Shown in pieces: positions 30,176-31,326 of a stretch of 64,000 nt of DNA. The position numbers and the translations under genes are program-made. Below the pieces are notes generated by a model that worked only from the letters and a program-made list of their open reading frames with translations, was not told the origin of the DNA and did no database searches. The first letter of the stretch is position 1. The number at the start of each line of letters is the position of its first letter. Source of the DNA: Candidatus Avelusimicrobium luingense (GTDB lineage Bacteria > Elusimicrobiota > Elusimicrobia > Elusimicrobiales > Elusimicrobiaceae); the NCBI GenBank assembly GCA_900315845.1, contig OOHK01000002.1, positions 248,001 through 312,000 on the forward strand, read 5' to 3'.

Positions 30176-30243
30176 AAATATACCTAGTTGTTTAAGTAAC
30201 ATTAAACCGGGGCGCAAGTTCCGGTGTTTTTAATGAACAGATC

Positions 30244-30327
30244 GGTAGGGTGGCTGAGTGGTCAAAAGCAACGGTCTGTAAAACCGTCGGGCTACGCCCT
30301 ACATAGGTTCGAATCCTATCCCTACCA
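30244..30327 (+). tRNA. tRNA-Tyr(GTA)
   Basis: The 7-bp acceptor stem GGTAGGG/CCCTACC, the anticodon stem ACGGT/ACCGT with loop CTGTAAA (anticodon GTA), a long variable arm and the T loop GGTTCGAATCC are all present. The long variable arm agrees with bacterial tRNA-Tyr (class II). CCA is not encoded. Its 3' end is copied twice more downstream. Confidence 0.95.
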
Positions 30328-30770
30328 AAAATTTAAGGCTCCGCGAAAGCGGGGCCGTAATTTTTGTAGAGAAACAACACCAACTGCTTGGTGTTGTGTT
30401 AGGATTCGAAGCTCGGAGCGATGTTTTTGTTTGAGCGTGCGTAAGCCGCGAAAGGCAAAAACCGCTAGAGCCGGCCTGTAGGCATTTTGCGTCAGCAAAA
30501 TGACCGGAAGGCGAATCCTATCCCTACCAAAAATTTAACCTGCCAAACGGTAGGTTTTATTTTTGTAGAGAAGCGACATAAACTGCTTTATGTCGCATTA
30601 GAATTCGAAAGGCGCAGCGATGTGCGAGTTTTGCCGAAGACAAAGGCGAGTACCGCGAGCCGGGGCCGCGAGCGGCGAAGGTTAATGAGCCGACTTGTGG
30701 CCGAATCCTATCCCTACCAAAAATTTAAGGCTCCGCGAAAGCGGGGCCGTAATTTTTGTAGAGAAGCGAA
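30310..30770 (+). repeat. Array of three tRNA-Tyr-tail repeat units with covarying hairpins
   Basis: A 27-bp segment that begins in the tRNA T-loop and runs past its 3' end is repeated exactly at 30310, 30512 and 30702. Each copy is followed by a short hairpin and a T-rich stretch, then GTAGAGAA. Units 1 and 2 then carry a second hairpin with a 10-bp perfect stem (30374-30397 and 30573-30596). The two stems differ in most bases, yet both loops are CTGC. Both units continue with a similar ATTCGAA and AGCGATG block. Unit 1's middle segment is bounded by TAGGATTCG and its complement CGAATCCTA. Unit 3 stops after GTAGAGAAGCG. Confidence 0.85.
30337..30366 (+). terminator. Terminator of tRNA-Tyr (array unit 1)
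   Basis: GGCTCCGC and GCGGGGCC pair around a GAAA tetraloop, followed by TAATTTTTG. Unit 2 has a hairpin of different sequence in the same place (30537-30556), and unit 3 repeats the unit 1 hairpin. Confidence 0.75.
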
Positions 30771-30834
30771 TATAAAATATTTCTTAACACACTTATTTTT
30801 GATAAACTGAATATATTGAGCCAAGGAATATACC

Positions 30835-31326
30835 ATGAATAATCATCAAGCCTTTACATTAATTGAACTGTTAGTAGTCGTGTTAATTATCGGCATTTTA
30901 GCCGCTGTGGCGTTGCCGCAATACGATAAAGCCGTAGAAAAAGCCCGGGCGGCGGAAGCGTTATCACTCATGAAAACTATTGCCGATGCTAATCAAGCCT
31001 ACTATATGGCCAACGGAACACACGCTATTCATATGGATGAATTGGATATAGAAATACCCGGAACAAGTATCACTAACTTTGATGCGCACCGCGTGCAAAC
31101 CAAATGGTTTGAATACGGCGTTGCTTGGAACAATGACCCCCATTTATTGGCGATTGCCAACCGCCTACCGTTAAGCACCTTTTATGTATTTAATCTTTTT
31201 GATGATAATGTAACTTGTTGTTATTCATACAGCACAAAAGGTACTGATTTTTGTAAATCTTTAAGCAAAGGGAAAACAAATTCAGCCCATACGAGTGGTG
31301 GTACAACCTGTTACCAACTTCAATAA
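30835..31326 (+). CDS. Type IV pilin-like protein (pilin copy 3)
   Basis: 163 residues. MNNHQAFTLIELL opens the usual leader and methylation motif, then the helix to VALPQYDKAVEKAR. The soluble part has YYMANGTHAIHMDELDIEIPG and a cysteine-bearing C-terminal region (VTCCYSYSTKGTDFC, TTCYQLQ). AAGGA lies ahead of the ATG. It stands immediately after the tRNA-tail array. Confidence 0.85.
   Translation: MNNHQAFTLIELLVVVLIIGILAAVALPQYDKAVEKARAAEALSLMKTIADANQAYYMANGTHAIHMDELDIEIPGTSITNFDAHRVQTKWFEYGVAWNNDPHLLAIANRLPLSTFYVFNLFDDNVTCCYSYSTKGTDFCKSLSKGKTNSAHTSGGTTCYQLQ

Follow-up and report, generated by a model that had tools for sequence, protein, structure and literature searches.

The tRNA-Tyr gene of Candidatus Avelusimicrobium luingense is followed by a tandem array of short repeats, and the question is what kind of genetic element is repeated there. 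In the window, which is the whole 64-kb stretch of DNA that was analysed, a 27-bp segment (CGAATCCTATCCCTACCAAAAATTTAA) is present three times without any mismatch, at 30310, 30512 and 30702, and the spacing of 202 and 190 given in the initial annotation is confirmed. The segment starts at C56 in the T loop of tRNA-Tyr (GTA; 30244-30327, on the plus strand like all parts of the array) and comprises 18 bp of the tRNA and 9 bp of its flank. The array as a whole consists of two full copies and a partial third copy of a non-coding unit of about 200 bp. Unit 3 stops at about 30769, within the second of its hairpins, and units 1 and 3 have 64 nt that are identical.

Two hairpins per unit had been proposed to covary, and both sequence versions are real and do so. 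The first hairpin reads GGCTCCGC-GAAA-GCGGGGCC in units 1 and 3 (30337-30356 and 30729-30748) and AACCTGCC-AAAC-GGTAGGTT in unit 2 (30537-30556), with the amendment that each version contains one G.T wobble. The second hairpin, termed HP1 in the following, is perfectly paired in unit 1 (ACAACACCAA-CTGC-TTGGTGTTGT, 30374-30397) as well as in unit 2 (GCGACATAAA-CTGC-TTTATGTCGC, 30573-30596). In shape and position the first hairpin corresponds to an intrinsic terminator, and it seems to be that of tRNA-Tyr. The earlier proposal of a structured element at the tRNA end is upheld by covariation in homologous loci, by arrays of this kind behind further tRNAs and by the variable occurrence at an orthologous site, except that the first hairpin is an ordinary terminator-like hairpin. 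Missed in that proposal were an antisense T-arm segment and two further covarying hairpins in each full unit.

Read from the tRNA onwards, the order is tRNA, a trailer with the terminator-like hairpin, a partial antisense of the tRNA acceptor 3' strand (acc'), HP1 with its CTGC loop, an antisense of T54-64 of the upstream tRNA (T'), the hairpins P2 and P3, the latter with a GTCA loop, and a repeat of the tRNA sequence starting at C56. The element proper has about 138 nt and opens with HP1, followed by the 11-nt T', P2, P3 and the tRNA 3'-end copy. In the window the segment that is mirrored and copied is the T arm and acceptor 3' strand of tRNA-Tyr (30308-30327). Unit 1 contains the trailer with the terminator-like hairpin (30328-30367, stem-loop 30337-30356), acc' (30365-30372), HP1 (30374-30397), T' (30400-30410), which is an exact 11-nt antisense of the T arm at 30308-30318, the covarying P2 (30413-30469) and P3 (30474-30512, loop GTCA) of the core, and the first tRNA 3'-end copy from C56 to the tRNA end (30512-30529), an exact repeat. 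The same succession is found in unit 2, with trailer and terminator-like hairpin (30530-30566, stem-loop 30537-30556), acc' (30564-30571), HP1 (30573-30596), T' (30599-30609, 10 of 11 positions antisense to the tRNA), P2 (30612-30660) and P3 (30664-30702), both covarying, and the second, again exact, tRNA 3'-end copy (30702-30719). The partial third unit (30720-30769) comprises the terminator-like hairpin (30729-30748), acc' and the start of HP1. From its sequence, T' can be predicted to pair with the tRNA-end copy and would then enclose P2 and P3.

With the 461-bp array stretch as query, 14 further places with E values of 1.1e-6 or better were found in the 1.46-Mb genome (G000), 13 of them behind tRNA genes and one at a contig end with no tRNA in view. 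The element stands behind 13 of the 47 tRNAs of this genome, namely Tyr, Arg-CCT, Arg-TCT, Arg-CCG, Ser-GGA, Ser-TGA, Ser-CGA, Ser-GCT (a locus cut by a contig end), Thr-CGT, Gln-TTG, Cys, Asp and Leu-GAG; the tRNA at C3:7710 carries a remnant of it. It is scarcely credible that the array represents duplicated terminators only, or an assembly artefact at one tRNA. A terminator-like hairpin is indeed present in each unit, and N runs (gaps or masking) occur in two tail arrays of the genome (L016 and L055), where copy numbers may be underestimated, but the same element behind 13 tRNAs of one genome, and units at many tRNAs in many other genomes, cannot be accounted for by an assembly-level duplication. 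Other repeats which copy a tRNA 3' end were seen behind two more tRNAs, at L055 (C3:114385) and L023 (C7:319096); by eye they are without HP1 and the usual core, and they possibly form a second class.

A pilin-like gene directly follows the array in the window (30835-31326), and 125 type IV pilin N-terminal motifs are scattered over the 1.46-Mb genome. A special link of the element to pilin genes was considered and rejected: six of 12 elements have a pilin gene within 350 bp, two of them sharing one gene, and 12% of random points have one within 500 bp, in a comparison for which gene lengths were assumed and which is confounded by intergenic clustering.

The search of related genomes with a covariance model (R1, built from the 13 own-genome units) revealed the element in 70 of 81 genomes, the own genome included, and with model R2 matches were obtained in 121 of 294 genomes of the window's phylum, 11 of these outside the order. 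A pattern scan of named genomes returned 60 stretches, comprising 49 Elusimicrobiota of some kind, ten entries named 'uncultured bacterium' and one Parcubacterium contig (L213). On the latter the element is located behind tRNA-Glu with a matching T', and the genome to which this contig belongs shows four matches at E 0.001. At the same threshold 41 of 379 sampled genomes from the phylum of the Parcubacterium match, that of L213 included, and for 26 of the 41 matches among the loci examined in this second phylum a tRNA is present within 120 nt upstream. Phage and plasmid records gave no match to one query, and no viral contig was matched by one pattern. No paper was recognised in a literature search as dealing with this element family, which does not prove its absence from print.

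At a single orthologous site, the tRNA-Tyr beside mutS, the element is often absent. Among 30 such loci, 22 have tRNA-Tyr in the expected direction and 21 are long enough to be read; the eight others are six with tRNA-Tyr on the other strand and two without tRNA-Tyr. A full unit is present in four of the 21 readable loci (G000, G023, G017 and G006), and the remaining ones are bare or carry an HP1-like remnant, as in G020. In G029, where tRNA-Tyr lies on the other strand beside mutS, an HP1 motif was found within 200 nt.

For the alignment 100 loci were taken (L184 and L185 were left out), and 114 of 123 matches are full units, nine having been dropped as shorter than 125 nt. A recognised tRNA stands upstream of 103 of the 114, in some cases across other units of an array, and 23 kinds of tRNA are represented (ARAGORN, linear mode). 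The tRNA end lies within 80 nt of the element in 90 of these 103 units, and in 83 of the 90 it lies 36-62 nt before the element. Of the eleven units lacking a recognised tRNA, ten are preceded by a tRNA 3' portion or by a T copy; these cases are contig starts, 3' halves and, at L079, two units that follow phage-like genes, and only L145 shows neither. Phage-like genes, as read from open reading frames, are also present at L285 (5125-6342 and 8760-9240), accompanied by a reverse transcriptase and an RT-18 RNA; they directly precede a tail array that begins with the 3' end of a tRNA-Ser but lacks a complete tRNA, apparently as the result of integration at the same site.

The segment T' follows the local tRNA. 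Over the 83 units with a tRNA within 80 nt, a T loop that was found and no gap in T', it differs from the own tRNA at 1.28 and from others at 3.78 of 12 positions on average, a difference reached in 0 of 2000 permutations; positions 1-11 match the tRNA and the twelfth does not. In the second phylum the values are 1.0 for the own and 3.05 for other tRNAs, out of 11 positions (25 loci, 0 of 2000 permutations), counted over those 25 of the 41 matches for which the T loop was found. The signal of acc' is weaker than that of T', with 2.13 mismatches of 7 to the own and 3.28 to other tRNAs (no permutation).

Covariation is strong in homologous loci, the opposite of what would have spoken against a structured element. 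RNAalifold on a structure-free alignment of the 13 own units yields 36 pairs, 23 of them with two-sided compensation. For a 41-pair structure, 95.1% of the cells are paired, compared with 77.1% after shuffling and 35-43% after sliding. The corresponding values for 123 units, whose alignment was made to the model and is thereby biased toward the structure, are 96.2, 75.3 and 32-44%; 31 of the 41 pairs show two-sided changes, and the cells sum up to 963 two-sided versus 53 one-sided ones. The loops are also conserved, CTGC of HP1 in 114 of 114 units and GTCA of P3 in 100 of 114, and P2 contains two conserved T.G pairs.

The right-hand boundary varies. Of 90 units, 37 end with the tRNA-end copy, 32 in the trailer and 13 within acc', HP1 or T', and eight continue into another unit; over 90 loci the tRNA-end copy ranges from 4 nt to beyond the tRNA end. 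Direct repeats of the tRNA 3' end, as read from the sequence, surround single units in G556 (18 bp) and G541 (22 bp). A short form, in which the T copy is directly followed by HP1 and T' without the centre of acceptor, trailer and terminator, was observed in L148, L133, L076 and L073, and in L148 two such units abut.

Ragged ends and a short form are what one would find if the arrays were a neutral by-product without function, generated by tandem duplication at short repeats and by palindrome correction through template switching or ectopic conversion, and the large excess of two-sided over one-sided cells also fits this explanation. It is nevertheless improbable, since the asymmetric features that such correction would erase (the CTGC and GTCA loops and the T.G pairs of P2) are conserved and the same plan is found in two phyla. 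Moreover, of the changes between loci whose cores differ by at most 6%, 24 are two-sided, 11 are one-sided and 3 are of another type; intermediates thus exist, as under selection, and a pure template-switch origin of the covariation was rejected on account of these one-sided changes.

Such close pairs also bear on the modularity of the element. In 25 locus pairs with a core difference of at most 6% but a different tRNA kind and T 11-mer, among which loci are reused, T' has 24 mismatches to the own tRNAs and 148 when swapped; the own T' is the better one in 23 pairs and equal in two. The same pairs show HP1 differences of 9-58%, and their trailers have no more than the usual similarity. Distances of HP1 and core are uncorrelated (0.014), and HP1 goes with the tRNA kind (0 of 500 shuffles). 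The tRNA kind is tracked more weakly also by the core (2 of 500) and by P3 (0 of 500), and the modular reading is limited because the core, and especially P3, partly follow it. When the nearest core is sought for each of 104 units, it belongs to a different genome and a different tRNA in 71.7 cases (expected 93.1); neighbours at the same tRNA of another genome (20.8 versus 5.3 expected) and neighbours within the same genome (11.5 versus 5.6 expected) are enriched.

Whether the folded form is DNA or RNA was approached by means of wobble pairs. With the two conserved T.G pairs of P2 left out, G.U accounts for 50 of 4093 element pairs and for 22 of 378 pairs in the acceptor stems of 55 tRNAs and is about five times rarer in the element (Fisher p 4.7e-8, with cells that are not independent). 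Of the pair-change measures only this standing level leans to DNA, and the conserved T.G pairs of P2 argue against a strict ban of wobbles. Acceptor stems analysed with the same script show 9 two-sided and 2 one-sided changes; as this ratio is similar to that of the element, the measure does not separate DNA from RNA.

Among known systems the element most resembles the tRNA-linked repeats (TLRs), a descriptive class, and it is taken to be of their type. The repeats at E. coli tyrT were reportedly described in 1978. E. coli TLRs (RtT RNA, RF00391, and RrA/B/F) are likewise non-coding, often tandem, contain several hairpins and end in a copy of the gene's 3' end. TLRs are located right behind a tRNA or rRNA gene, as is the element (tRNA upstream in 103 of 114 units, within 80 nt in 90). 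PMC8144298 gives 22 tRNA-linked units at ten K-12 loci, with 18-19 bp of the upstream gene repeated at the unit end; an exact 18-bp copy is found in the window and a comparable one in only part of the 90 loci. In that paper, TLRs are said to have been without known function before its own report on three rRNA-linked ones which bind Hfq and CsrA. The E. coli tyrV units, as read from the sequence, open with the T'-like GGGGAAGGATGAGAA, which is antisense to the tRNA end except at 2 of 15 positions, and close with a tRNA-end copy. The variant GAGAA is likewise found in several loci of the present family. The GA beside GCG in P2 resembles, by eye only, the tandem GA motif of RtT noted in PMC7657543.

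Membership in the RtT family was rejected because the R2 and RtT models do not join the two families. The RtT model, which found four matches at E. coli tyrT/tyrV as a positive control, has no match in 18 element loci up to E 5, and R2 reaches 5.4 bits on E. coli tyrT (E 0.55), which is no match. At gathering scores Rfam detects nothing but tRNA in the window, with that of RtT (RF00391) not reached, and at E 10 it finds the tRNA and weak matches far under the gathering score in 30240-30830. No HP1 with a CTGC loop was seen in the E. coli tyrT/tyrV units. The T' rule appears to hold only partly in E. coli TLRs: in 12 TLR-like spacers, picked out among 40 RNA genes of chosen K-12 regions by a script that missed the rrnB repeat of PMC8144298, the own tRNA fits no better on the whole than others (3.58 and 3.87 mismatches of 11, respectively), with 2 mismatches at tyrV, proK, lysV and lysQ and 3-6 at the other eight.

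These relatives give weight to an RNA element, whose tail would be co-transcribed with the tRNA and processed out, either to act as a small RNA of the RtT or RrA/B/F kind or to assist folding, and whose T' would pair with the T arm of the tRNA or with the T copy. In E. coli, RrA/B/F give rise to processed transcripts, and CsrA is bound by RrB in vitro (PMC8144298); in Actinobacillus, Northern signals were obtained for RtT RNAs (PMC4986893). Such transcription of relatives also counts against a DNA form. The single fixed orientation behind tRNAs speaks for RNA too; RNA is equally compatible with the invariant loops and with the conserved T.G pairs, and the two-sided share in close pairs resembles that of tRNA acceptor stems. 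On the other hand, G.U is rare, a terminator-like hairpin with a T run stands ahead of HP1 and core in 66 of 91 loci (loose script), and the element is often absent at the orthologous site. We regard an RNA element as possible but rather unlikely, and the rarity of wobble pairs together with the upstream terminator-like hairpins leans to DNA.

Our preferred reading, held tentatively and a little short of an even chance, is that the array is a modular, non-autonomous tRNA-tail element which passes from one tRNA 3' end to another and is amplified in tandem, its folded form being somewhat likelier single-stranded or cruciform DNA than RNA. In the folded strand T and T' would pair and thereby present a duplex that is equivalent to the end of the tRNA; the tRNA end would serve as the recombination site, the upstream tRNA gene would stay whole, and the recombining enzyme may be one of the host. 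Spread from one tRNA end to the next is consistent with the direct repeats, with the patchy presence, with the re-addressed cores and with the tandem arrays, and the arrays also fit the growth by unit addition suggested initially. Against spread it counts that no insertion or excision event was caught and that the ragged right-hand ends fit plain tandem duplication and decay.

No mobilising enzyme emerged. Y1 transposases number 0 in the own genome, were not found in 40 of the 49 genomes that represent the genus and are present in 36 of the 81 genomes; RVT_1 is missing from the own genome, which encodes four tyrosine recombinases (PF00589), two of them probably XerC and XerD. All three enzyme families were rejected as mobiliser for want of a consistent link. 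A shared downstream gene was rejected as well, since no recurrent mobility family is among the 25 listed of 123 Pfam families from 102 downstream proteins. One Y1 transposase match (G069:C109:8073-8895) lies about 0.4 kb from an element, possibly by chance.

Some other systems share traits with the element. In integron attC sites a single strand folds, two inverted segments form the recombination site, and structure is kept more than sequence; the element shares this folding logic but is bound to tRNA ends and mirrors its target, and neither gene cassettes nor an integron integrase are in evidence, integrases having been covered by the general count of PF00589 matches. Like the element, REP elements and further miniature repeats that are mobilised in trans are short, hairpin-rich, non-coding and multi-copy; the element has in addition a strict tRNA-end address, and the cognate Y1 transposase of REP/RAYT systems is missing from the own genome. 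Genomic islands and phages at tRNA 3' ends likewise repeat the tRNA end on the far side of the insert, whereas the element is without genes, far smaller, tandem and contains an antisense T arm.

Taken further, the findings might define a class of mobile DNA elements that contain no genes, extend across phyla and perhaps rank with the smallest mobile elements. A single strand, folded so as to mirror its target, would direct them to tRNA ends; their core would be exchangeable, their address would be rewritten for each tRNA, and the E. coli TLRs would be worn members of the class. This broader proposal is speculative, and we consider it doubtful. A large, divergent and covarying family in two further phyla, whose address arm follows the tRNA, provides a structure model and a location rule and gives testable predictions on its action as DNA or RNA and on its spread.
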